From Saccoglossus kowalevskii (lineage: Eukaryota > Hemichordata > Enteropneusta > Harrimaniidae), in contig NW_003114465.1 in assembly GCF_000003605.2 (NCBI RefSeq), forward strand, positions 207,771 through 240,960: a DNA stretch of 33,190 bases, written 5' to 3'. This document shows positions 1,951 through 33,190 of the stretch, one piece after another. Under the pieces are notes generated by a model that saw only the letters and a list, made by a program, of their open reading frames with translations, did no database searches and was not told the DNA's origin. Numbering within the stretch: position 1 is the first letter of the stretch; each line of letters opens with the position of its first letter. Both the position numbers and the translations under genes were made by a program.

Positions 1951-1989
1951 ATCCTTGGCTTACGGGAGTCACTCAAGATCAATGATTTC

Positions 1990-2351
1990 AAGCCCCTGGT
2001 CCAACGAACAGCTTCTGGAGAATGATCCAACACTGTCTATTGCCTTCCAGGATTACACTCTTTTGTTGTTGCTTGCATTCTTTGGAGCAAATATTGGTGC
2101 CGCAAGTGTTATTTCACTGTGACAATTCAACAGTGGTGAACATTGTCAATAAGGGGCATTCAAAGTCACCAGCTATAATAAAACTCGTGTGCCGTCTAGT
2201 CATTCTAGCAGCCACCGATAGCTTCACTTTCCAGGCAGAACATATACCTGGGTCCTTTAACACTATTGCTGATTCTCTATCACGTTTACAGGTTCGACGT
2301 TTCCGGAAAGTAACCCGATTTGCACAAGAACAGCCGTACCCATTACCTTGA
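1990..2351 (+). pseudogene. DIRS-like RNase H domain relic
   Basis: The open frame at 2022-2351 contains FHCDNSTVVNIVNKG, then SKSPAIIKLVCRLVIL, then EHIPGSFNTIADSLSRLQ. CDN carries a catalytic Asp of RNase H, and HIPG...ADSLSR is the typical C-terminal end of the domain in DIRS and related retroelements. Residues just upstream, from about 1990, fit the start of the domain only in another frame, with a stop, so the domain is broken near its N-terminus. The ATG at 2022 is incidental, not a real start. No function is expected today. Confidence 0.8.
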
Positions 2352-2384
2352 GATATAATGTTCAGTTAAATGATGCTATTTCAC

Positions 2385-2806
2385 ACTTCCAGGATGCTTC
2401 CCTCAGCACAAGGAAAGCCCAGTCCTAAGTGACAGGAGTACGTGCGTGGCCTCGCTTTGCTGGTCTCTTTGAGTTACCGTGTACTGCAGCGTCCTATCCA
2501 GATATTTCAGAGGACACCATAATTTACTTCACAGCTCACTGTGCTTTCAGCCTGCGATTAAAACTTTCTATGGATAAAGTTTACCTCGCTTCTATTCGAA
2601 ATCTCCACATTCGGGGAGGCTATGGAAACCCCATGATCACATCCGAGGGTTTGGAGTTCGCTTGTCTCTCCCATATGTTGAGACGGATTCACCGGATACA
2701 CGAGTTCTTCATCTCGTCCACGGTTGCACATAAGCTGCTACAACTGCTGCAACAAGTCAAATCCCGACCATCTTATGTCTGCTACATTCGCACACCTAGT
2801 TTTTAA
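2385..2806 (+). pseudogene. DIRS-like tyrosine recombinase, N-terminal relic
   Basis: From about 2395 the frame reads SLSTRKAQS, an in-frame TAA at 2426-2428, then continues through SEDTIIYFTAHCAFSLRL, KVYLASIRNLHIRGGYGNP and LRRIHRIH. This matches the SAM-like core-binding domain of tyrosine recombinases in DIRS elements. Near 2724 homology shifts frame to a segment with NPDHLMSATFAHLVF, corresponding to the start of the catalytic domain. The Arg-His-Arg-Tyr catalytic residues are not present. It lies about 40 bp after the RNase H relic, in the same order as in intact elements. Confidence 0.75.
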
Positions 2807-2815
2807 GAGAAACCT

Positions 2816-5373
2816 TTATTGTCTTAGCATCCACATAGAACCGCTGTTCGCACCATTGTCAACAGCATCATGGGCCACACATGGCTGTCTCACAGACCCG
2901 AGGCACTTCCCTCCACCTGTGTTTCAGTTTCATGTCGCCCAAACATTGTCCCTCTCCCCCAGGCCGCACATAGCTGTCCCACAGGTCGCGAGGCATACTA
3001 CCTTCCCCTATGTTGCTGAGTTCATGTCCATGGGCCGTGAGATGTTCACAGTTTAGTTATCTCAAGTTATTCTTGAGCAGACCACGCATACCGTGAACAT
3101 CAGTTCCATCTGCACCACTCCTTGGTCTGTTAAAGTTTGAGTCACCCTTTATTTATCAGGTCTCTTTATTTTTATTTTCATGGTCTGCTCCACTAGCAGC
3201 CCGTGTTCTCTCGTTTGGGCATTGGATTTCATTCCGACCCCCATAGCAAGGTTGGGCGGCCTCATGCAAGTCCCCCTTCTTTTGGTCTTGAAATACATCG
3301 CTCACTTGCTGTCTCAGTGGATAGAAGTGGCACCCCTGCCAAAGTTTATTGAATTGTATTTTATTAAATCTGTAATTATATTAGTTTGTAGTAGTTGTTT
3401 GTGATTGTAAGCTGTTATTTTCAATAATTAATGTTTCTCTACCTTTTTGTGTGTTTTTACAAATTGCTTACTTGTGGCTGCACAAGTGTGAGTTTTTAAG
3501 AACAAGTAACCCTTGAGCTTGGTACAATTTTATGATTCAGGATGTTCTGCTCTCAGCCAATCACAGCCAGTTTATTTCCAGCAATCAGCTTGCATCCTTG
3601 TTCATCAATCAGCTTCATTTCGCCAGCCAATCATAGCCAGCTTCTAAACACGTACCGTAGCGTCTCTACTTCTTTTGTTCAGCAGTTTCATTCATTGTCT
3701 TTTACGCGCCACCACTCAAGCATTGTTTTCTCTTTGCTCGTCATCCCACGATAATCCCCTTCTTCCCCCTTTTCTTGTTTGGCCTCCTTCTTCCTATCAG
3801 TCTGGGCAATGGATTTCATCGTAAAATGTGTGATACCACTGGTAAATTTTACTCTATTGTTTGCAAGGCGGGATTCAGAAGACGAGCTCTATTTACCATT
3901 CTTAAAAAACGATGAAGAACCAGAATATAAGAACACTAATATGTACAGAGAACAAAATGTTATGTGCATTACATGCATAGTTTCTTTAACCTAACGATGT
4001 AAATGTATCTAAATGGCCCAGGTTATGTTATCAGAGTCACCCAACTAAAAACAAAAACATCTATGTCAAATCTAACCCTGACCTAAAATTGCTTGAATTG
4101 ATTGTGTAGTGGGATTGGATATTAGCTTCCATAAATTTCCACCTACAGCCATTGGCGCGAAATATCACCATGTTTGCACCTACAAGAAGACTGCTAAGCG
4201 ATATTATTCGTCTCCCAGACATCACATATAGGGAGTGTATTTATACCCTGCCCAATAGTAAATTTTCAAATAATAAATACGTCTACCCATATACTCGTAA
4301 TCATGTCTTATTTAATATATTGTACGGTCCTAAAGAACGGGCCACTACAATTAAAATGTGTATTATTAAAACAATCATAAACGTTCAGCCACTACAGAAG
4401 CTGTTTTGCTTATAACCATTCTCCTGTAACATTGTCTGTGTCTGTGCGCACATCTGAAAGATAAGAAAAAGATGCGTGAATTGTAAATGACATACGATTG
4501 TTACAAGGTGATCGATGGCGAAGTGGAAATAATATAATAAACCGTAGATCATTAAACAAAAGTTCATAATCACAGAACAACTACAACCAATTGAAAATAC
4601 ATAATCATTTATACATCACAAAAAAACATTATCAAATCAGTGAAAAATATATTGATGTCATCTTAGATTATCTGTGTGACAGCGTTATCTTATTATAAAA
4701 ACTCTTGATGTGAACAAAAAAGACGATGCTATTTTAACTCGTATGTACCAAAGGTGTAGACAATTTATGACGGTGAAATTAAAACCATCTCCTCTGTCGC
4801 ACAGACTGGTACGAAGCAGGCTCTTACAGCTGAATTCAAGACACGGATCTAAGTATAAAGCAGAACAATAACAAATGTGCGTCCACATATATTCGAAATG
4901 CGCGGTTACCGTGCAATAAATTTAAATTAATTTGTGTGTGAGTGAGTGTGGCGATATGTTGATTCAAAAAGATAAATCATTACACTTGTTTATCACTCGG
5001 TGATATGAATACACCAATGCTCACAAGGTGTTATGCTGCTGATGTATATGTGTATATATATATATATATAATGATTGTATAAATAATGTATGGCATAAAC
5101 AGAAATTGTAAAGCACGGTTTCAAGTCATTCAGCCAAAAAGTGGTGCAACATGTATAAACATAAAGCCAAGAATTGGTGTCAGTAAGTACATTCTACTCT
5201 AGACTTAATGTATATAATCAAATTAGAAACTGAAAAACAACCTATTTAATGGTCTAAAAATGTATGTGGAAATGTGTACCCCTCATGGTTCGGTAGAGTG
5301 CGAGAGGGGGTATTGCTGTTACAGTACAGAAAATAAACAATCAACGAATGTACTGCAATTTGTATGCAGTCAC
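2816..5373. other. Long stretch without a recognised gene
   Basis: The first part (2816-3800) is richer in C and T and may contain the degraded 3' part of the DIRS element. Phrases recur in it: tgggcattggatttcat near 3217 and tgggcaatggatttcat near 3803, plus several copies of 'cagccaatca' and 'aatcagct' at 3553-3655. Open frames at 3180-3404, 3542-3754 and 4152-4415 resemble no family I know. A (TA)n run sits at 5052-5070. The rest is AT-rich with no visible signal. Confidence 0.4.
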
Positions 5374-7174: not shown

Positions 7175-7300
7175 ATGAAACCCATCACGAAAGAATTGTT
7201 ACAGGACATTGACCGAAAAGTAAAAAAGATTTTTAACTCAATAGAGTCGATAGTTAATAAACAAAAGAAGATTGCTGAGAGTTTCAAAGGTGGAGAGTAA
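7175..7300 (+). CDS. Candidate small coiled-coil ORF or exon upstream of the helicase
   Basis: An ATG at 7175 starts a 41-residue frame rich in Lys, Glu and Ile (MKPITKELLQDIDRKVKKIF, then NSIESIVNKQKKIAES), which has coiled-coil character. The frame is open upstream to about 7111. A consensus donor (GTAAGT) begins at 7297, inside the last sense codon, so it may be an exon ending at 7296. It lies about 200 bp before the helicase on the same strand. Whether it is a lost 5' exon of that gene, part of another element or chance is unclear. The antisense open frame here is longer but lacks protein-like composition. Confidence 0.25.
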   Translation: MKPITKELLQDIDRKVKKIFNSIESIVNKQKKIAESFKGGE

Positions 7301-7494
7301 GTACATGGAATTTGAAAAAAAATCTTTTGAACAAAAAAGGTGAGTGTTCCGGCAAAGCACTGCACTATTACCTTGAAGTCTTTCATCAGAACTGTGTGTA
7401 TGTGACAGTGCCCTCACAGTTTAGAATCAGTTTATCAACAGCCAATTAGATTGCTTCTTTTGTCAACGCGCTTGGGAAAACTTTCAAAACAAAT

Positions 7495-9420
7495 ATGACT
7501 GCGCACAATGGAAGCTGCGTTGGCTTCGATGTCGAGGCAATGCAGCGACGATATCCAGACATCAAACAACTTGCAGACATTCAGACCAACGCTATTCAAG
7601 CTTTACTTAGTTCTGACAAAGATGTGTTCGTTGTAAGTCGCACTGGAAGTGGTAAATCGTTATGCTTTACCAGCTTTGCGAGCATCGAGCGTGGTGATAG
7701 TGTTGTCACCACTGCTGAGTATTGTGGAGGAGCAGGTGTTATACCTCAGAGCCCATGATGTAACTGCAACATACATTGGAAGTAATGAAACCGAAGATGA
7801 AGACATCAGGAATGCAAAATTTCAAGTGCTTTTTGGCAGTCCAGAAATGATAATTGGCAATGAAAAATAGAGAAAGATGTGGAAGTCAGACGTCTACCAA
7901 ACCAGAGTGCTTGCCATTGTAGTTGATGAAGCCCACACAGTAACATTGTGGTTGGTATTTTTTTTAACCATGTGTATGTCAATATTGAGTTTCAATTTAT
8001 AAAAGCCTGTATTTTGCCTTATATCACGAAAATAAGCAATCACTGGCTATTCATTATTAACCCTTACCCTGCCAGTTCAATACACTCATACCACAGGAAA
8101 CCCAGGAACTATGATCAACTGTATGCACTCCCTATGAGCGAAGGGGGGGGGGGGTATCGGCTGGTATCCACATCATAGTTCCTGGGTTCCCTGTGCTTTT
8201 ACATTGACTTGACCAGATAACAAAAAAAATACTAAACACAATTCTAGACCCACTGTAAAACCATTAATTTTCACCGACATTTAATTTCACTATTTTGACA
8301 TTTCGAACAATTTTACTGGGTTTTAAGTTCTCTTGGCAGTGAAATTTCTATTGTTATTTTACATTTGCACGTGTAGTACATTTACCGGATTTCCGTTATC
8401 AGCAAAGATAGCTAAATAAAAACATGAAGGTAGAATGTTAAGGGGGTCGAGTGAATAAAATTCTGTGAGGTGATTGTGAACTAAGAACACAAAATAATAA
8501 CCATAATGCATTACAAATATATTTTTATTTATTGTAGGGGTGAAGATGGTCCAGGTGAGAAAGCTTTTCGTGAATATTTTTCCAGAATTGGTGAACCGTG
8601 TTCACTTTTGACAGCTTCATCGATGGCTCTTACTAAAACAGCTAGTTCTTCCAAGAGAAAGAAAATCATGACAGGGTTTAATACGATAAATACAAGGACA
8701 TTAATGTTGGTAGAAAGTCCAGACAGACCTAATATCAAATTAGGAGTCTTACGAAATGAAAAAGGACAGAGAACCATATTGCTGAAACATTTGAATGGTT
8801 GTTAGAAAAGGAAAATATGAAAAGGTACATCATTTTTGCAAGTGCATACAGGACTGCAGGAATCCACTGGTAGAATGTATAATATGTTTCACAGCAAGAC
8901 CCCCAATGCAATTAAACAACTAATAAAGAAAGATAAAAGTATTGATTTGCACTAATGCTGCTGGAATGGAGGGTGAACTTTCACAATGTCCATAATATTA
9001 TTCACTATGGTCCACCCAGAGAGCTGGACACTTTTCTGCAACAAATAGGGAGAGGAGGTAGAGATGGCAAGCAGTCGCAACAACTGTTAAACTACAATAA
9101 AACTCGTATTAGAAAGATAGATCTTGATATGTTATCATACATTTGTAACCACACAGAATGTCGAAGAAAAATCCTCCTTCAAAACTATAATGTAACGTGT
9201 ACCGGTAGTAGTGATGCAATTACTCATAACCATTGTTGTTGTGACATTTGTGAGCAAAGTTGTACACGTGAGCAAGAAGTATGCCAAATGCAACATGTTT
9301 ATTATAAAGAAACCAGGAGGATCCCATCATCACATGTTAGAAATGTGACAACTGAACATCAGCACTTGATGCTTATAGTGTCAATAAATCTTGATGTGTG
9401 TGATGAATCATTTATCGTAC
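7495..9420 (+). pseudogene. RecQ-type DNA helicase pseudogene
   Basis: RecQ helicases are ATP-dependent 3'-5' DNA unwinding enzymes. Visible motifs in order: DIQTNAIQALL (RecQ motif 0-like), SRTGSGKS (Walker A, residues 48-55), VIVLSPLLSIVEEQV (Ia), VVDEAHTVTLW (DEAH box), ALTKTASSS (motif III, normally ALTATA), CTNAAGM (motif V region), FLQQIGRGGRDGKQSQ (motif VI), then a Cys cluster (TECRRK, CCCDICEQSC) matching the RecQ zinc-binding region. The ATG at 7495 lies just before the homology. Damage: frameshift near 7665; TAG at 7868-7870 where Trp is expected (GNEK*RKMWK); further frameshifts near 8775, 8850 and 8945. The GT-AG intron 7951-8537 restores LWGEDGPGEKAFREYF across the junction. Many invertebrate genomes hold multicopy, short RecQ-like genes with a transposon-like distribution; this appears to be one of them, now dead. 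Confidence 0.85.
8092..8195. repeat. Short foldback (hairpin) element in the helicase intron
   Basis: A 24-bp arm at 8092-8115 (cacaggaaacccaggaac...) pairs with 8172-8195 (...gttcctgggttccctgtg) with one mismatch, around a 56-bp loop that contains a G12 run at 8143-8154. It lies wholly inside the intron 7951-8537. It looks like a small dispersed palindromic element. No target-site duplication was resolved. Confidence 0.75.
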
Positions 9421-9482
9421 CTTCTGAGGCGTCACATGGTTTTTCAGAGTTTGTTATTATTATTATCGCATATTATTATTGA

Positions 9483-10584
9483 ATCTAGTGTTCATAATTT
9501 AATGTGTCAAATTGACTTTCTTCCAAAACCTACAATTTCTGTGTGCAGCTCAACCTCCTGTTACCATAGTATTTTTTTATGTTGACATTGTCCAATGAAA
9601 TACAGAGACACTTTATTACAAATGACCAACTTTATATATTTTTGCCACATTGCCCAAATGTGAAATTCCAGTGGTCTTAGCAATGTAATCCAAATAGGAC
9701 ATGGGGTAACCATAGTAAATGCATGCTTTTTGTTCTGGGCTAAATCAAGTGTTCATAGTAGTGTATTGGGCTTAATATTCCATTCAGGTATGATGCTACA
9801 GAATCAAATAAACATGTACAATATCAGATGAACATTGTCATTTTTATTCATCAAACATACAATTTTTTTTAGAAAATATAGAAAATCACATTATTCTTGT
9901 CCAAACAAAGTCTGTGGTTAATGATTTGCTATGCAAACATGATGTACACATGACATGCACAACTATACAATCAATTTATGTCAGAAAAAAAACTTCTATT
10001 TTGTGCAAAATAATGAACACAAACACTGCACATGCACTTCTAAGTATTGCACCCATAGAAATTGAAACCGTATCTATGTTTATTAGACTGTCTAGTTCAA
10101 ATGAAGTCCTGTGTGCAGATTGAATTTAAGGCACTGATTTGATGTAGGAGATATTTATAATAACATTTAAGAATAGAGTTAGAACAAGAATCCGGTTAGG
10201 TACAAATAAATCTGAAATTGTGAGATGCAAAAAGTGGAAGCCATCCTATCCAGAGTACTGTAGTTGATAACATTTGTTGAAAGATGGATCAAGAACTGCA
10301 TTTTTTGAAAGAAAAATGGTTATTAGTCGATCATTTTGAATCCAATCAAGTAACCATTTTGCCACTAAATGACAAAAGTTGCATTCATGTATGTTTGACC
10401 TTGGTCTGAGTAAACTGTCAGCCCTTATTTGTTTTTTTGGATATCATCTCAAATGAAGGCATAGTCAATAGGAAGTTATAAAAGTTGTAACAGACTATTC
10501 AGGCCTAAGGACCTTCCTATAAACATACTTAGAAGGCTGTTGACAGTATTTCCTACAGCGATCCCATAATATAGTTCATTTATT
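9483..10584. other. Gap between the convergent helicase and DUF6589 relics
   Basis: No gene can be supported. The open frame at 9914-10123 is unrecognised. Around 10300-10370 there is a fragment related to the dispersed repeats at 21.5-22.4 kb and 30.0-30.4 kb (a 'cattttgaatcc' type core). An AATAAA on the minus strand at about 10579-10584 follows the DUF6589 stop codon directly. Confidence 0.4.
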
Positions 10585-12791
10585 TTAACTATCAAAAACA
10601 AAATTACCTTCTTCGTCAAGTAGTATGTATTTTTGTAGGATCTTTGGAGAGAATTTATTTAGCCAGTCTGTCTTTTCTAGATCTGTTGATGAAGTTGGAA
10701 GATCACACAGTGGTGTTTCTTCTTGGTCTTGTATCCCTAACAACTCCAAAGCTGTAGCAATGATTATATATATGCTTTCAATGTATCTTCTAAAAATACA
10801 TAATGTGCTCTGAATATGAAAAAAGTACATTTATTTGATAATAATACTGGTGTTTTTTGAATAAATAAATCTATTCTAGGTAGTACAAATTCATTACTCT
10901 TGCATGGTGTGATAGTTAAGGGCTTGAAATACAAAATTATTTTTCTACACTATTATTAGAATCAATAAAATTTAACAAATAGCTGTTTGAGTTGTATTTC
11001 AATTCTATGGTCTACAAAATCAGTATTTTTAATGAGCTGTAACAACACAACTTGTAACTCTTATGTACAGCAGAACCAGTTACATTTAATCTGTTTATAC
11101 TATTCCTCAGTTGAAACAATGATCCAAACTCTTCACCAGCTTGTAAAGCAAATAATAGCATGTGTTATATCAATCGATCAATTCTCTGGTTATCTTGCCA
11201 ACTGTTTATATTTGTCATTTAGAAATTTTAATTAGTTAAGGATTTACAAATTACATGACTTAAGGTTCATAGATCTTTTAATTGTTTCTTCTCTTGTGTG
11301 ACCTAACAGTGAACTAAAAAACGCAACAGACGTTTTCTGTTTAGTCTCACACAATCAGGGAAGAGACTGGGGAACAATGTAGATTCTGTTCACAGCAAAT
11401 ATATTCACTGGTGTACATTTTGACTATTTCAGTACATATCACCTGCTTTCAGCATAACATACTTGGGATTCACATTCTGGTATTATACGGTATATTGTAG
11501 AATGAAGAAACTACCTATCTGAACAAGATTCATTAAGCGATGTAATCATTTGGGTCGATGAATTAGTCCCTCACAGTTTTCATAACTTGTCCCCAAGAAG
11601 TTTTTTCCTGCAGCTTGAGCAGTATACGCACGTTCATTGGTAAGAACATCACCACCAAAAACCCTCTTGCCACAAATAACATGTGGCCTCCCTTCATCTG
11701 TATGTGGGATAAAGTTGGCATGAATATGCTCCAATATACTAATCATGTCATGTGATTTGTTCTCATTCTTGCTCAATAGCCCTAGAATAATATATTCAGA
11801 CTTTTTACTCGTTTCTTTTAAATATGAATGTTCAATGTAAGGAGACCGATTGTATATTAGGAACTTTGCTTTGATATTGTTCACAATTATGTTGCCGATA
11901 TGCAGTGTAAAGTTGTCATTGAGTGATGTACATTCTGCGATTGATGGCAATAACTTTGTTGCTGGGAATTGAAGAATATTCATGCGTGGTACATCAAGAG
12001 GACTGTTAGATGTAATTCTTCTTTTGACACTCACATTGAGAAACCAATAGATGCTTTCACGTTGTCTATCTTTTGTCGTATACGAGGAGTCCAGTCCATA
12101 GTGTCCTCTATGATGTCCCATGTAGGATTTCTGACCTTCTCAGATGACTTCAGGTATTTTTCCAAATAACGTGCTGTTGAATGCTGATTTGCACTTGATT
12201 TCACGTTATCTCCACAATTGTTATTTACAAAGGATATTCTACTTATCTTGGGGAAAAAAAAAACAATCTTTCCCACTACAGTTTCTATCTGGAATCATTA
12301 TCTGCATGCACAGTGTTGTTCCATTCTGACATTCCGCTATCCACAACCTTGGGATTTGGAATAGCCAATATGTTGGTCGTAAAAACCTCAGTGAAGCTAC
12401 GCGCATAACTCACTCATCGAATGTATTCCCCTGTAATGGGTTTGATGGTTTCACTTGGCAAGATATCACCACATGATATACTCTCCAGACATTTATAAAG
12501 TAAAGGGGTTGCAGTCCTCGATTTAGAAATAATGGCACCGAGATAAATTTTAGTCAGTTCATCTGGCGTTATATTCTTTAATTTCGAATCCATCATACAC
12601 ATCTCTTTGCTTTCCTGTACCAATGCTTTAGAAATTCTGTCTATTACCATTGACCTTGTATCAGAATCAGTTAACATCACATCTAGAATTCTCCTTTCAT
12701 TATTTCTAACCACTGCTTTGCAAATAGCATGTTGTGGTTCACTGCTCACGATTTTGCTCACTATTTGTGCTGGATGTTTCACAGGAATCTA
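10585..12791 (-). pseudogene. DUF6589-type protein pseudogene (four blocks)
   Basis: Read on the minus strand, four blocks match in order a large invertebrate family of transposon-like proteins carrying DUF6589. Block 1 (12791-12414): AQIVSKIVSSEPQHAICKAV and TPLLYKCLESI, after an atttag acceptor and ending in TGA beside a GTGAGT donor. Block 2 (about 12240-11525): TARYLEKYLKSSEKVRNPTW, a frameshift near 12040, then VKRRITSNSPLD, SEYIILGLLSKNENKSHDM, VICGKRVFGGDVLTNERAY and CEGLIHRP, with a TGA at 11546-11548 followed by LHRLMN and a GTAGTT donor. Block 3 (about 11140-11051): GSLFQLRNSINRLNV. Block 4 (10809-10585): IIIATALELLGIQDQEE to NFVFDS and a stop. The function of the family is unknown to me; the GD(Q/V)LT and LHRLMN signatures drive the call. 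Two internal stops and a frameshift mark it as dead, and family-typical C-terminal sequence appears to be missing. The L1-like LINE begins just beyond the 5' end, so an upstream exon may have been displaced or lost. Confidence 0.75.
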
Positions 12792-12863
12792 AATTAAAAA
12801 ATGTGTAAATTTCACATAACTGTGTGTCGATAAAACAAGTACAAATACTCCAACATACCAGAA

Positions 12864-13408
12864 ATGAAATCACACCAAAAATGCACATCAATGCAGGCGG
12901 ACGATGTAGAATCTCAATTATCTTCATTACGGCGTATCAATAAACAAACTGCTGCAGCAGTGGCCGATGCTACCAACTCGTGTTTGAAACTTGAGCGTTA
13001 TTCTCAGGGCGATAACCAGAGAAAAAAAGAAGATTGTGCAGTCATCATTTTGGATATTATTAAGGTGCGATTCAACATGTCGAACGTTGTTATTGACAAT
13101 GCACATCGTGTCCCGGTCCACGAAACACTTCGGCCAAATGATACACCTCGCTATATACTTGTAAAATTACCAATCCGTCGACAACGTGGACACATTTTGA
13201 CCAGGAAAAAGATTGCTCTAAAAGACGCAAGAACCTTATAACAGTAGACTTGTGTAAACAAGACTATGATACCAAAAAGAAGCTAAAGGAAGTAATTGAT
13301 ACAGCTTTCAAAGATGGAAAAGGAGTGAGATTATTAACAATGCGTGGTGAAGAAAATGGCTATGGCCATGACTATACATGTGTGATACTTATTAGGCCAT
13401 ATTTGTAA
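12864..13408 (+). pseudogene. L1-like ORF1 (RNA-binding protein) relic
   Basis: ORF1 proteins of L1-type LINEs trimerise through a coiled coil and bind the element RNA with an RRM and a C-terminal domain. Here an ATG at 12864 opens 125 residues: a heptad-like stretch (SQLSSLRRINKQTAAAV), then LERYSQGDNQR, which corresponds to the LE.YSRR.N entry to the RRM, then IIKVRFNMSNVVIDNAHRV and PRYILVKLPIRRQRGHIL. A frameshift near 13225 moves the rest to another frame (LCKQDYDTKKKLKEVI to LIRPYL, stop at 13406). The start region overlaps no other exon. The order and spacing fit invertebrate L1-like ORF1. Confidence 0.75.
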
Positions 13409-14635: not shown

Positions 14636-16885
14636 AAAAAAATGAAGCATTGAATGCTATGCCAAGAAATAAACCCAAGGAAATGATGGACTCAGTGTTC
14701 AGTACTACTTTACTTTCTGGCCTCTACGTGGAGAATACTTGGTTAATGCATTAAATGCTTCAGTTGTAACTGAAGAAAAAATGAAGCATTGAATGCTATG
14801 CCAAGAAATAAAACCCAAGGAAATGATGGACTCAGTGTTCAGTACTACTTTACTTTCTGGCCTCTACGTGGAGAATACTTGGTTAATGCATTAAATGCTT
14901 CAGTTGTAACTGATGAATTTTCAAATAGTCAAAACCAGGGGATCATCAAACTTCATCGAAAAAAAGGTAAAGACAAACTGTTCATCCGCAACTGGCGAAC
15001 AATCACCCTGCTTAGTACAGATTATAAAATTGCATCAAAATGTATTGCTCACAGGTTGGATAAGGTGTTATTCATGATTGTTAAATGGCTTTTGCCGAAC
15101 GCAGATCCATTGGGGACTCAATTCGCTTAATTGAAGGTATAATGCAATTCACCAAAGATAATAATTTACCTGGGATTCTCGATTTCAAAAAAGCTTTTGA
15201 TAGCTTAGAGTGGGAATATATCTTGTATGCATTAAAGCAATTTAATTGCGGCAAAGCGACCGAGATTTGAGTACTGGCCCATGGGTATTTAAATCTTGGC
15301 AGAGGAGTCGGGCAGGGAGACCCTGTCTCACCTGCCTTATTATAGCTCTTGAGGTATTTCTAACATCACTAAGACAACGTGAGTCTATTACGGGAATAAA
15401 TATTCAAGGCTCGGATATAAAATAGTCATCATTTGCACATGATTTTTGGGAAATTTGAGCTCTGTTGGTCATTTATTTACATTGTTAGATGTATTCGGCA
15501 CTTTGTCAGTATTACAAGTAAAATACGAGAAAGCCGAAGCCATGTGGCTTGGGCGTGGTACCCGCTGGCCAATGTTACCAATGAATATAATGTTGTTGCA
15601 ATATCGATCTAGCATATATATTGACTATTGAAGGACCACTCGATTCGCTAAAGTAATGCCTGCATCTTTGGTCTCTTCGAAAACTGTCATTGATAGGTAA
15701 AACCCAAATAGTCAAATCACTGCTAATTCAATTTTTTTTATTTAATCTTGTAGTCATAAAAATGCACGATATTAAAACAATAAACAGATTTATCCACACA
15801 TTTATTTGGAATGGACCAGACAGGGTGGGAAGAAATACATTTGGTGATATTGCTCAGTGGAGAATAAATTTATTAGATATTTTCGCTCTGTATCATGCGT
15901 CAAGTGGATTTAACGTTTCCTAGACCCTGCTGTTACCCATCCTTGAAAAAAATCCTCTCTATCTTAGACCCCTTCAGAGGTAGCATTATCTTCTAATTTC
16001 TCTACTATCCGCCTCACTGCCAGCCTTCTGCACAGTTGGTCAAAGTTTAATATCTTCCAAAAGCAAATCCAGTCAGTAGAAAATATTGTATTTTTTAACT
16101 CTAAAATATTCATAAATGGCAGGAGTGTATACAGCCTGGATTTCATTTCCAAAGGTATTATTTATATTGCTGACTTGTATGATGCTGGAGGGTATCCAAA
16201 AACGCGGGAATCTTTTAAACGCACAGGGCTAACAAAAAACATTTTCTCTAGTATCAAGGATTACTTTCATGTCTATCTCTGCCCGCAAAATGGAAGTCAT
16301 GTTAATCATATTCTGTTAGACCAGAACTACCAATTGGTATGCTCATTGGGAATAAGTTTGCTCCTATGGGTTGTATTAATTGTAGGCAATTACTAAGATT
16401 GCTCTCTGCGTCCTATTTTGTACCTCCTAGAGAACAAACGTATTATCAATTTTTTATATTGGGGACAAAGAGTGGAAAGAATTGTATTCACCCCATTCAC
16501 ATTTACAATAGAATCAAAACTTCAGGAATTCCAATAAAAACGAAATATTTTGTATACTAATTTTTTACTTCTATGTATGAGACCTCTTCGTGTAACTTCA
16601 AGTCTATGTACGGTTGTTAACAATGCCGAAGAAACAGTTTTACTCGTTTTTGTGCAATGTGATTATATACAATCGCTATGGAATAATATATTAAGAAAAT
16701 GGGAAACTTCCCTTAATATTCCAGAAAATATTTCAACAAAACAGATAATTCTAATAGATAATACGCTTTCTAAATTGCTGAACCCTATCATACTAATTAC
16801 TAAACAAACGATATATCAGAGCAAGTTAAAGGGTAATCTGTCTACATTTAACACGGTGAAGGCAATTTTTATGGTTCCAAATTAA
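14636..16885 (+). pseudogene. LINE ORF2 reverse transcriptase and C-terminal region relic
   Basis: Blocks in order: EALNAMPRNKT..GNDGLSV (14789 on, and in an upstream duplicate), FIRNWRTITLLSTDYKIASK, RRSIGDSIRLIEGIMQF, LDFKKAFDSLEW (motif A with the catalytic Asp region), RGVGQGDPVSPALL (motif B), SFAHDFW at 15429-15446 where FADD is expected, KAEAMWLGRGTRW, IGKTQIVKSLLIQFF, FIHTFIWNGPDRVGR, then FINGRSVYSLDFISKGIIYI and QCDYIQSLWNNIL, which are typical of the L1-like C-terminus. The FAHD substitution removes a metal-binding Asp of the polymerase centre. Several frame changes and stops occur throughout. Confidence 0.85.
14641..14917 (+). repeat. Tandem duplication within the LINE RT (about 139 bp x 2)
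   Basis: The segment at 14641-14779 is repeated directly at 14780-14917. The copies are nearly identical: the only clear differences are one extra A in the second copy (aaataaaaccc vs aaataaaccc) and the final bases. The duplicated part covers the start of the RT region (EALNAMPRNK to NASVVT). Its high identity inside a badly decayed element shows that the duplication is much younger than the LINE insertion. Confidence 0.9.
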
Positions 16886-19540: not shown

Positions 19541-20440
19541 TATAAACCACTGAGATTTCGATGGATTACCCACAATCCACTAGTTCAGTTTTAGGGTTTA
19601 CCAGTAAGCCAATTAAGGTTTGTTATTGCTTACACACAAGACACGTGTATATTGTGATTTCTAGTTATATACTAGTTAATAAATTAAAGTAGACAAATTT
19701 AGAATTTTAATTGTGCATTACTAGAAATATCTCCATATCATACTTGCGTAAATAGTCATGTCATTCACTTATACTGTTAAAGATACTGAAGTAATATAAT
19801 CAAACTATTGATGCACGTATGATTTGTTCAGTAGTTTTACTCTTTTCAAAAAAGACGAACCTCAGTAACTGGATTATTAATAGGGCAATCATGGAACAAC
19901 AAACACAACATTATTAGGTTGAGGATTTAGAAACATCAACCAGTATATGCAGTTTTGAAAATTGGTCGTTATATGAGATATTACTTCCATGCTCTGCAGG
20001 TAGCCCACAAATCTAACAGACTGATTATATATTATTGCCGCTCGCATGATTATCTCAAACAATAAATGGATTAACACGAATATCACGAAATAACACGTAC
20101 CAGTTGGTGATTGCATTATGGAACGGGTGATCCTTTATGAACACAAATATTTATTCATGTTTTGTCCAAAACTACATCTGATGTCCTAAACAGCACAGCA
20201 TCGACTGGTAAGTATGCGTGTCCATTTTTACTATTACATTATTTTCGAAGCAACTAGAGCAGAGTTGTTTCAGTTTCCCATTTCTTGTTACCCGTCAAAT
20301 TGTACATATTTCAGAGAAAACTACTACTGTAGTACTATATGGTGCATGTTTGCTCTAGTGACCCCTAGCGTTCGATGTACAGTTTACAAGGATAACAAAG
20401 ACGGCAGGGCGGCACACATTCCAATTTAATTCTATTTTAC
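19541..20440 (+). repeat. Inverted segmental duplicate, copy 2 (with pseudo-exon)
   Basis: This is the plus-strand partner of 1140-1950, aligning over most of its length with many substitutions and indels. The part at about 20001-20207 matches the candidate exon of copy 1 (KSNRL, then FIHVL and DVLNSTAS) but has several stops and frameshifts. Its 3' border keeps a perfect GTAAGT donor at 20208 and a gtttcag acceptor-like site ending at 20273. The homology runs well beyond the putative exon on both sides, so the duplicated unit was genomic. Confidence 0.75.
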
Positions 20441-25333: not shown

Positions 25334-27333
25334 GTAGAAAACTATTAGATTATTAAAATTAATATGTGAACTAGGATGTAAACATACAATGTTTTACACG
25401 TGATCACAATGGTATACACTGTTATTTTAAACTCGGAATATGGAATCGTACATAAAGCCCCACTTGTACTATTTTTTGTTTAGATTTACTTTACAATTTC
25501 CGTTTCAATATATTTGTTTTACTGTGAACAAAAAAGCACCCCAACCAGCGGCATTTTGTAAACAAAATAGCAATGTTGATAGTTAAAATATAACAGTTTG
25601 TTATGATATCACTAGTGTTACTTTGTTAGCAAAACAGTGTGCTACATTGCAATACTGCCGGCTGGGTTGTTTGTCGTACACAGTAAAAAGTAATCTTCTA
25701 AATTTAACAAAAAATCAATGTAACATTGTTCTATTATAAAATATTTATCGGATTAGATGCCATGGTATTGGGAACATTCATTTGTTTAGTTCGAATTGTA
25801 TCTTTCAAAATATATAAGAGTATAACTCTTTAAAACATATATATTCAAATAAAAATCATACATTTGTGACAGACAGAGCAAAATATACGTCGAATTATAT
25901 ATTTCTGTCAAGAGTGATGAAGTCCAGTTTGCATTTACAACAACTGAAATACATTATCTCAACCCGGCTCTTCATTATGTGAGCCAGCTAAACACTCTTC
26001 TATCAATAAAGCAGATGATATACTTCCGTTTGCCACTGCAGCTTTTGCAAAGTTGGCACAACTTGCTATATTATTATTATTATTATTTGAATGTATAACT
26101 AATTTTTGCTATTACTTTATTTAATTATATCAGTCAGTCAGTAATCATCATAGGCATGACGCATATATAATTCCAGCAAAGGCGGACAAAATAGTCGATA
26201 ATGAGGAAGCAATAAAGAAAGGAATTACGGCTTACAAAAACCCTAAACGTGTAATGGAAACAAAACAGCCCGATGCCAAAGGTGATAAGGTTTGTAGCGT
26301 GGCGTAACGGGGAGAGCGTCCATTTACAGTGGCGAGGCGTGTGTTCTAGGTTTTGGGGTTCGTAAATGTGCCTGTAACTTCGATGACTAGATGGAACGAC
26401 CATTTGGTAAATGTGCAACAGTTCAACGTACATACAAAATGTTTGACATACTATTACGATGGTATACATCAACCTACATTATATATGCGTCGTTAAAACA
26501 GGCCGCTCCCAAATAATTAAATGTTGTACTTACAGTGTCTCTCACTGCAAAAATACATAGCCATCAATTATTATTACTGATATTATTATTTAGTAGTATT
26601 ATTTAGATCCAGCATACACATTTCTAGTAAGTATTTTTTGTTTGTTTTGTTTCAGCGAGTCAATGGTCAACATGCCAGTCACAGACATGGTCAATATATG
26701 ATTCCAGTTCTTTACGATGGTAATGGACCAAATTGCCAATACCAATCTTTCAGAGGAGCTATGAAATATGCTCTTAAGGAAAACTTAACATTGACTGAAA
26801 ACTTTTTTATCAACCACTGGACAGCAGGAAATAAATTCGGGGGCAGAAAATTCCTCAATGAAACATTTGATATAAACAAAATAAAAGAAGTGTTAGACTT
26901 AATCCCACTCAATCAATTTAAAGATATATGCAATGGAACAGTTGATAAAGTTATATTTCCAGGGAGTTGTGCGGCATCGAATAAAATATTTGACATATAC
27001 AAAAAAATGAGTAAAGAGTTTACTTCGTTATATGATATCAGACTTCCAACTTTAGACCGAAATGATAATTTGACACAAATTGGAGACGATTTGGTATTAA
27101 AAGTAACTGACAACAATCAGTGTATGGCATTAATCGGCCCAGATCGACGGTGTACAGTTAAAGCGACAAACGAAATCATTAACCAGGCTGACCTCCATAT
27201 GATACGAACTGAGGAGATTAGAACTCTGGCAAAGAAAATCTCAAAAACAATCTGTGATGGTGAACCATACGTAGCTATGCAATGGAGAAACAGATCAGGG
27301 GAAGCGTGAGTTACCATCATACATGTTTTATAT

Positions 27334-27404
<71 letters not shown>

Positions 27405-30400
27405 TATTCTATAGCCCCATCGCGACTTGTGTGTTGCCTCCACGTACGTGTACTGACTGCATAACTAAAATGTATAGAAGACACTGGCAATGTCTTGCCA
27501 CCCAAAAATAATTTGTCAGTAGGAGACATTGGCCTGTGAAACGTAGTTGAACTCAGCCAGGAAGACACGCCTTGGGCCAATATATTGTATAATTATAAGC
27601 CACTGAGCTGTAGCAATACATTTGATCAATCAGCACAAGTAACATTTTGAAACCAAACTCGTTGGCGAATATTACTAAAAACTTTCCATATTACACGGAC
27701 ATAAACCACATAGTTTCGGGTAAATCTCCCCAAGCAGAGCGGGCCTCCCAGTAAATCTAAAAACTCTGCAGTGGTGCAACCTACCGATATACTGGCTGCC
27801 ATAATTTAATTCAAAGTGCTAGGAAAGGTCAACATATCTTTCCCATCAACTAATAGTTACCCCCATGTGTTGGAACAGTCAACACATCAGATAGGACCAT
27901 CTTTGTTATTTCTCTGCTTAAAATAACTCTTCAAACCTGAAATCTTTGATTCAGTTGCTTTAAGTTTGTACGTTGAATTATGAAACCGCCGTATATTTAA
28001 AAAGAGGTCAGAACCTTTTTTAGATACACTTTTGACTTTGTTAAGCGAGTGATTGTCCATCGTCGTCCGTGTCAACTTTTTACCTTTTCAAATTCTTCTT
28101 ATAAACTACAAGCCTGATTGCTTTGATACTTGGAGTATGTGTACCTTTGGTAGACCTGACTTCAAGTTTATGGTATCTTCAAATCACTAATTTTGGTGAA
28201 TATTTTTGATAAAATATGATATTTTTGACTTATTGTTAAAATCCGGCGGATTGATTTGATAATTATAAATATATGTAATTTTTGATGAATATTTGTGTCC
28301 TGTTTGATAAAACGTTATATTTTTGACTTCTTGTTAAAAACTGATTAATATTATACTTAAAGGTGCTCTCAGATTTGTTCATTTGTTGATGATGTCTTCA
28401 ATTCTTGAAAATGAAATGTGCATTGCTAACAGCGGAGCTATCTCAGCCAAAAGGCTGCTCGTTATTTTTTAAAAAAGTTGCATTTCATCACCTCGAAATT
28501 GAGAAATGCTAAGAATTTAACAGGTTATGTTTTAATTTATATTCTCAAACATTTGGTCAGTACATGAATATTTTCCCCTTGTATAGCAATACGTAATATA
28601 TTCGCAAAATTTAAAGAAATCCATAGACTTTCGTGGAACTATTACGGCACAATAATACCATGATCATTGACTACCTGTGAAATCTTCACACAATACTTCG
28701 GATAATTTCAATTCACAAGAATTAAAATACTTGGAGTAAAAATAAAACATTAAGACATGCTATGTTAATAGATATTGATGGCAGCTTAAATACAGTTCAT
28801 AATTAAACAATGTTTGCCAGCAAAGAGATATGTAGCAGAATCAAAAATATTAGATGTTTTGTCCTGTCAAAGTCTTGTAAAATATTTGTCTTTAATGTGG
28901 TCGTCATTTGTCGTGTGGTATGCGTTCATATATTCGAATGTGTTACGTGTGTGGAATATGTTTAAATTGATATGTAGTTGTAGTTAATAATTGCCAAAAA
29001 ACTCAAGTTATTAATATTAATCCTTGATAATTATGCATCATAGATGAGAAGTTTGTTCTGTAATATCGCGTTTTACTCTCATCAATTACAGTTGTGCCAA
29101 ATCAAATAAACGATGTAGCCCAGATTCGCCATTGATGGTGAATATTAGCAAAATTGCTGACTCAACTGCTGAAGGAGTTAAACAATTTATGACAGAAAGA
29201 AATATTAGATGTGTGTATGTTGCTTTCCCTCCATTCGGTTCAGTAAGTATCACATCACCACACAGTATCATATTGTTTTTTCATAGATATGAAATTTTGT
29301 TTTTACCATATATGTGTCCAGTTTGCAATACTTTTGACAATTTGTGATACCATCTAAAGAGGAAGTAGTTTTTTACTGCTTTATACCATTTCTTTTAAAA
29401 GTTTAATATCTCTACTGAATAATTCGGTAACAGACGTGATTTTGCTGCCATCTTTTATTCGACAGGTTGGACATTTGTTTCTCATTTCTCATGAGTGCTT
29501 TAACCATTGAAGTTGATATTGCATGTAATTGCAAACTTCTTACAATAAAATAAAATAAAATAACGTTAATTCAATATGGCGACGTACAGAGCATTCGTTT
29601 GCAAGCAAAATCATATTTTTTAACTGATTTTGTGTGTCGATACTGTACATTTAATTTGGTAAGTAAACTATTCCTGTTCACACATGCACTGTTATTTTAA
29701 AGGTAATTAAAATAGTGTTTTGAGAATTACGAGACACTTTCATATGTTGACCAACATGCTTGGAGAGGTAAATTGCATTGTTTTAGTGAGGCTCTAAGCC
29801 GTGTTCCTATAGTTTCTTAGAGCTTAGATCTGATGCATCTCAGAATAAACAAGCCATGCATGGCATACTCGTTAGTTATCAAATCTAAGTTATACGGTTT
29901 TGTTACTTAATCATACTGAGAAATATTGCTCTGGAACATCATATATGCATTTCTATAGAATGACATATAATGAATATTTAACATTCAAAGATAATCAATC
30001 AGTCAAAGTATGTCAGAGATATGGCACTAGAGCCGCATTCATTAAACGAAATGGCTGCTAGTCTGGTTCTGTAATGTCAGAAATGCTTGATTTTTGATGA
30101 TTTCTAGCACAAATATGGCCACTATTCGATCATTTTGAATCGGATCGTCAGACCAATATATCTGTATATCTATGAGGTAATGTATAATGAATATTCTAGA
30201 ACCATATTGAATAAAACAAAATGGCCGCCAATCAACCATTTTGAATCCGATCTCAATAATAAAATGACGTGCATCAAGGTCCCATTATGTTCTATATATG
30301 TACCAAGTTTTAACAAAATATATTTGTAAACAGTCCAGAAATACTTGATTTTGATGATTTTTCAGTACAAAAATCACTGCCATTCAGCCATCTTGAATTA

Positions 30401-32361: not shown

Positions 32362-33190
32362 AAACAATGGTATCAGATATAATGGCTTAACAGTGGTATA
32401 AGATATGATGGCTTAACAATGGTATCAGGTATATGGCTTAACAATGGTATAAGATATGATGGCTTAAGAATCGACTCAGATATAATGGCTTAACAATGGT
32501 ATCACTTATGGTGGCTTAACAATGGTATCAGGTATGGTAGCTTAACAATGGCTATAAGATATGATAGCTTAACATTGGTATCACTTATGGTGGCTTACCA
32601 ATGGTATCACTTATGGTGGCTTAATAATGGTATCAGGTATGATGACTTAACAATGGTATCAGGTATGATGACTTAACAATGGTATCAGGTATGATGACTT
32701 AACAATGGTATCAGGTATGATGACTTAACAATGGTATCAGGTATGATGACTTAACAATGGTATCAGGTATGATAGCTCTAACAATGGTATCAGATATGGT
32801 GGCTTAACAATTGTATCAGGTATGATGGCTTAACAATGGTATCAGGTTTGATGGCTTAACAATGTTATCAGGTATGGTGGCTTAACAACGGTATCAGATA
32901 TGATGGCCTAATACTGGTGGTATCAGATATGAGGGATTAACAATGGCATCAGATATGATGGCTTAACCATGGTATCAGATATGATGGCTTAACAATGATA
33001 TAAGGTATGATGGCTTAACAATGGTATAAGATATGATGGCTTAACATTGGTATAAGATATGATGGCTGAACAATCGTATCAGATATAATGGCTTTAACAA
33101 TGGTATCACTTATGGTGGCTTAACAATGGTATCAGGTATGGTAGCTTAACAATGGCTATAAGATATGATAGCTTACATTGGTATCACTTA
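32362..33190 (+). repeat. 26-bp minisatellite with higher-order structure (continues past the window)
   Basis: About 32 tandem units with consensus near acaatggtatcaggtatgat + ggctta. Variant units carry 'ataagatatgat', 'atcacttatggt' and 'ggtatggtag'. Five consecutive units at 32641-32770 are identical. The ordered set of variants at about 32395-32590 reappears at about 32999-33190, an offset of about 604 bp. The array is intronic or downstream relative to exon 5 of the O-fucosyltransferase-like gene. Confidence 0.95.

Follow-up and report, generated by a model that had tools for sequence, protein, structure and literature searches.

The 33,190-bp stretch of contig NW_003114465.1 of the hemichordate Saccoglossus kowalevskii analysed here (the window) is AT-rich DNA holding several mobile-element remains. 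A plus-strand RecQ-type helicase relic (7495 to about 9482) and a minus-strand DUF6589-type relic (12788 to about 10588) face each other tail to tail, as an earlier, sequence-only reading had described. The gap between them, from the last base of the helicase open reading frame (ORF) at 9482 to the last assigned piece of the DUF6589-type gene at 10588, is about 1.1 kb. Both genes very likely belong to a dead AcademH-type element of the Academ superfamily of DNA transposons, which is 5418 bp long and lies within ORF1 of an older L1-like long interspersed nuclear element (LINE). The features are listed in Table 1.

Table 1. Features assigned to the transposon relic and to the LINE that surrounds it (window positions).
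Feature	Position	Strand	Evidence
Whole DNA transposon relic, 5418 bp, both genes inside	7400..12817	.	10-bp duplication and 6-bp inverted ends
Left target-site duplication, AACTGTGTGT	7390..7399	+	Exact match to 12818-12827
Right target-site duplication, AACTGTGTGT	12818..12827	+	Exact match to 7390-7399
Left terminal inverted repeat, ATGTGACA	7400..7407	+	Against the right end, first 6 bases exact, 7/8 overall
Right terminal inverted repeat, read inward, ATGTGAAA	12810..12817	-	Matched to the left end
RecQ-type helicase pseudogene, probably two exons	7495..9482	+	recQ_fam, DEAD, Helicase_C, RecQ_Zn_bind; Werner helicase on read-through
Probable helicase intron, GT...AG	7951..8537	+	Limits by eye; links ...VDEAHTVTLW to GEDGPGEKAF... 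in frame
Longest DUF6589-type ORF piece, holding GGDVLTNER	11546..12139	-	Pfam PF20231, E 0.0015, under the curated cut-off
Upstream DUF6589-type pieces, with a stop (12414-12416) and a frame change	12034..12788	-	Reading frames, position, family features
Probable downstream DUF6589-type pieces (11075-11155, 10588-10773)	10588..11155	-	Reading frames, order and family features only
Start of ORF1 of L1-like LINE, left of insertion	7175..7297	+	Reading frame, by eye
Rest of LINE ORF1, right of insertion, frame break near 13240	12861..13405	+	Reading frame, by eye
LINE reverse transcriptase piece	14774..15130	+	RVT_1 E 0.0031, under cut-off; L1 reverse transcriptase chains

Genes of the Proposed Element

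The plus-strand gene is clearly RecQ-like in its sequence. Its reading frame, with the first ATG at 7495, is represented by three ORF pieces, all of which match the NCBIfam model recQ_fam (TIGR00614, length 470) colinearly: 7450-7758 at profile positions 10-56 (E 7.6e-6), 8485-8805 at positions 146-210 (E 1.1e-4) and 8946-9482 at positions 291-335 (E 1.2e-11, the best of the three), each score being far under the curated cut-off of the model, as expected of fragments. In the Pfam scan, the first piece matched DEAD (E 8.3e-7) and the third matched Helicase_C (E 5.1e-4) and RecQ_Zn_bind (E 0.0038), each of these two under its cut-off, while the second piece had no match. For both genes a read-through protein was composed, with X placed at the breaks. 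In the helicase read-through, DEAD and Helicase_C exceed their cut-offs, and its best match among solved structures is the Werner helicase (E 1.7e-35, residues 27-395), with chain 1oyw, which we take to be E. coli RecQ, matched at E 4.4e-27. The motifs TGSGKS, DEAH and QQIGRGGRDG and a cysteine-rich stretch are directly legible. The helicase gene is dead: its frame shifts near 7665, 8770, 8866 and 8950, and a stop interrupts it at 7868-7870. Its probable intron houses a 104-bp hairpin (8092-8195) with 24-bp arms that are 96% complementary, resembling a miniature inverted-repeat transposable element.

The Pfam match of the minus-strand gene to DUF6589 spans residues 64-179 of the ORF 11546-12139 (about 11603-11950 in the window), and the ORF 12414-12788 gave no significant family match in the Pfam and NCBIfam profile scans. 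The DUF6589-type half is probably real but weak, since this is one sub-cut-off match; the outer pieces (12788-12034 and 11155-10588) were attached to the gene through their order, strand and family features and by no database match. The gene is interrupted by at least two stops (12414-12416 and 12031-12033) and by frame changes. Two candidate acidic catalytic residues are presumably those in EDTMDW (from 12108) and GGD (from 11656), with about 152 codons of DNA between them. The only match of the DUF6589 read-through among solved structures, Crov588 (E 0.0039), had no passing stretch and was taken as chance.

Boundaries of the Proposed Element

The boundaries were sought by a scan in which the element was allowed to start at 7200-7489 and to end at 12795-12959, with duplications of 9 or 10 bp and inverted ends. 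These lengths were set because the duplication length of AcademH elements was known beforehand (PMC10045372). The best result is an exact 10-bp AACTGTGTGT on either side of 7400-12817, and the enclosed 5418 bp begin with ATGTGA and end with TCACAT. A 10-bp duplication together with a 6-bp end repeat was obtained in 0/2000 dinucleotide shuffles and in 0/3000 random draws of real places, of which slightly fewer than 3000 were examined, as places closer than 600 bp were skipped yet counted. In a second control with free lengths (duplication 4-12, ends at least 3), the statistic was the sum of duplication and end length, for which the observed value is 16. A sum of at least 16 was reached in 1/1000 shuffles of the scanned region, in 1/1000 shuffles of a wider region and in 0/1500 real pairs, those lying wholly within the right-hand minisatellite being excluded. 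Moved outward by one base at each end (7399-12818), the AACTGTGTGT match reads as an 8-bp duplication with an extra terminal base, which is indistinguishable from the 10-bp reading.

Two other placements of the ends were considered. The exact 10-bp match AATAAACAAA at 7256-7265 and 12939-12948 was rejected, the match falling within the LINE ORF1 at both places and its ends sharing 3/14 bases. The initial expectation had been that the ends lie directly at the breaks of the LINE (about 7300 and 12858), where by eye there is no duplication; the scan gave 7400-12817 instead.

The two genes are read as one element because the exact 10-bp target-site duplication and the inverted ends enclose both, and the flanks read as pieces of another element. 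The sequence evidence thereby supports the earlier suggestion that they are the helicase and the transposase-like component of a single element: one exact 10-bp duplication with matching 6-bp ends surrounds the pair. The same earlier reading had called the link proximity only, which no longer holds, as the window also contains this shared duplication and these inverted ends; proximity is in this way turned into a bounded element. Its start of the unit at 7495 stands as the helicase ATG, while the proposed unit is slightly larger, 7400-12817. Nothing was found in favour of a composite in the strict sense of two joined elements.

Several observations weigh against a single element of the Academ type. 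Only one copy is available. The 10-bp match by itself is not rare: 11.9% of shuffles contain such a match, and another is present at 7256-7265, so that the inverted ends matter. These ends are alike over 6-8 bp only (6 exact, 7/8), with nothing longer at the termini, and a 9-bp duplication with a 6-bp end repeat was met in one case among the draws of real places and in 0.05% of shuffles. When the insert is removed, the 135 bp remaining between the LINE pieces (7298-7399 plus 12828-12860) are not ORF1-like. Within the element anatomy, the right end is the least secure feature. Only 29 bp separate it from the first DUF6589-type ORF, which has no clear start codon and therefore lacks the beginning of the protein; this copy has probably lost part of the gene, unless the right end is misplaced. 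The sole Pfam match to DUF6589 is weak, its 17.7 bits (E 0.0015) falling short of the cut-off at 27, and joining all assigned pieces into the read-through brings no improvement over the same stretch (15.2 bits, E 0.009). Finally, that DUF6589 is the transposase of Academ is something we infer.

Some of these points would also fit two insertions, or fragments of genes, of independent origin that came to lie tail to tail by accident, with the duplication and the ends matching by chance: one copy of each gene is seen in the window, the 10-bp match alone recurs in shuffles, and the ends agree over a short distance. However, a duplication and inverted ends together were as rare as stated above in all three sets of the free-length control, and the 10 bp of the duplication agree with the published length for Academ elements that carry a helicase (PMC10045372). 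Nor was a second pair of ends noticed between the genes, although the intervening 1.1 kb had no dedicated test. We regard such an accidental pairing as very unlikely. For a bounded unit present once in the window, the single-copy evidence is good but not overwhelming.

Relationship to Academ and Kolobok Transposons

The AcademH lineage reportedly goes back to Kojima in 2020 (Mob DNA 11:15). It is described in PMC10045372 and PMC10799480, and PMC3627910 credits Kapitonov et al. with reporting the RecQ helicase in Academ. Duplications are 9 or 10 bp in AcademH and 3 or 4 bp in AcademX, a difference suggested to relate to the presence of a helicase versus a nuclease (PMC10045372). Like AcademH, the element described here carries a RecQ-type helicase gene next to one that is transposase-like, and its exact 10-bp duplication is within the range reported in PMC10045372. 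Its 5418 bp are close to the mean of 5565 bp of bivalve Academ consensus elements (PMC10294476), though the bivalve figure serves here as no more than a yardstick. It differs from AcademH in that it is dead, in that its transposase is weakly matched and lacks the beginning, and in its end repeats of 6-8 bp. AcademX belongs to the same superfamily and carries a nuclease, not a helicase, with duplications of 3-4 bp (PMC10045372). This assignment was rejected on the 10-bp duplication found here and on the absence of nuclease families among the Pfam matches of the scanned ORF pieces, a subset of the ORFs, in 7400-12817.

Kolobok elements insert at 4-bp TTAA sites. AACTGTGTGT, with its 10 bp, is not the short TTAA-type duplication that would mark KolobokH and therefore argues against a Kolobok element with a RecQ helicase, be it KolobokH or a relative of Kolobok-1_CCri. 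These two resemble the present relic in combining a RecQ helicase with a DDD/E transposase, and Kolobok-1_CCri, like the relic, has its RecQ gene on the strand opposite to that of the transposase gene (PMC9587614). Set against this, KolobokH is reported from fungi only, and duplications of 3-4 or 4-5 bp are given for KolobokP (PMC9587614). A Kolobok origin appears highly improbable.

The pairing of a helicase with a transposase matches a kind of transposon already in print (PMC3627910, PMC10045372, PMC10799480). The likely job of DUF6589 would be that of the transposase in helicase-bearing Academ elements. The DUF6589 name was not found in the literature searched, and its link to Academ is putative, which would suit a separate, unnamed superfamily of helicase-bearing DNA transposons outside Academ with DUF6589 as its transposase. 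Such a superfamily is only faintly probable, as the RecQ partner, the duplication length and the element length fit Academ (PMC3627910, PMC10045372, PMC10294476). It is also unlikely, though worth stating, that DUF6589 is a DDD/E transposase which, together with RecQ, forms a convergent two-gene animal transposon of a lineage outside Academ as now drawn. If so, many annotated invertebrate "RecQ-like" and "DUF6589" genes would be transposon genes rather than host genes. With AcademH as the preferred assignment, the element adds one dead copy to an already described kind and is mostly ordinary. If DUF6589 is indeed the transposase of such elements, invertebrate and fungal DUF6589 and RecQ-like genes should be checked for a transposon origin before being assigned to host repair.

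In an intact AcademH-type element of this arrangement, the minus-strand DUF6589-type gene would encode a DDD/E transposase that binds the short inverted ends, excises the element and integrates it into target DNA with cuts staggered by 10 bp. The RecQ helicase of the plus strand could have a role in transposition by unwinding DNA during excision, during insertion, or in the ensuing replication or gap repair.

The Surrounding L1-like LINE

When the flanks of the transposon are joined, both ORF1 pieces of the LINE are in the same frame, which would occur by chance in 1/3 of cases. The joined pieces gave weak, sub-cut-off matches only, such as the coiled-coil family PF15188 (E 0.0017), and no specific family. 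The LINE character of the region downstream is indicated by the piece 14774-15130, which matched five L1 reverse transcriptase chain sequences with E 4.9e-5 to 1.1e-4. The arrangement suggests that the LINE inserted first and the DNA transposon afterwards.

The 135-bp stretch between the ORF1 pieces, taken with its neighbouring bases, begins with GTAAGT and ends with CAG, thus resembling an intron; alternatively, it may represent an older, small insertion whose ends are weakly similar. A 140-bp tandem duplication with 98% matches (14637-14917) lies inside the LINE ORF2 region and is therefore probably much younger than the LINE.

Search for Relatives in Viral and Prokaryotic Sequences

Viral contigs were examined by five pattern scans, of which three gave 7, 7 and 12 matches with no confirmed relatives (0) and one gave 0 matches. 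The fifth used a pattern for the GGD-LT motif, with Q allowed, and found 1 locus; in prokaryote genome contigs this pattern found 35. In tblastn searches of both read-through proteins against all 36 of these loci the best E value was 0.064, and therefore none was taken as a relative. The main DUF6589 piece, as the only query, had no match in phage records. The peptide GGDELTAESAE, or a near form of it, was seen in 7 contigs of one bacterial metagenome-assembled genome, bin.280 (L013, L016, L020, L022, L024, L029 and L035); this stretch resembles a repeat dispersed in the bacterial genome and seems to have no relation to DUF6589.

Other Repeats and ORFs in the Window

The region 1986-3056 comprises an RNase H-like piece (RVT_3, E 6e-5) followed by the ORFs 2429-2806 and 2682-3056, neither of which had a match in the Pfam scan. 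By eye, the ORF 2429-2806 is tyrosine recombinase-like and may belong to a DIRS-type retrotransposon. The longest stop-free stretch of the window (26581-27309, 242 aa) is exon-like, with no convincing match in Pfam (E 0.079) or among solved structures, where Tako8 chains gave E 0.001 without a passing stretch.

Inverted repeat copies at 1174-1882 and 19658-20401, about 18 kb apart, are 80-96% complementary in six blocks. A 157-bp tandem unit lies near the left edge (318-631), and related single blocks are found 28 kb away, at 28101-28403. The right-hand minisatellite (32363-33186) consists of 31.5 copies of a 26-bp unit, and a similar single unit of 27 bp is located inside the transposon at 9769-9795.

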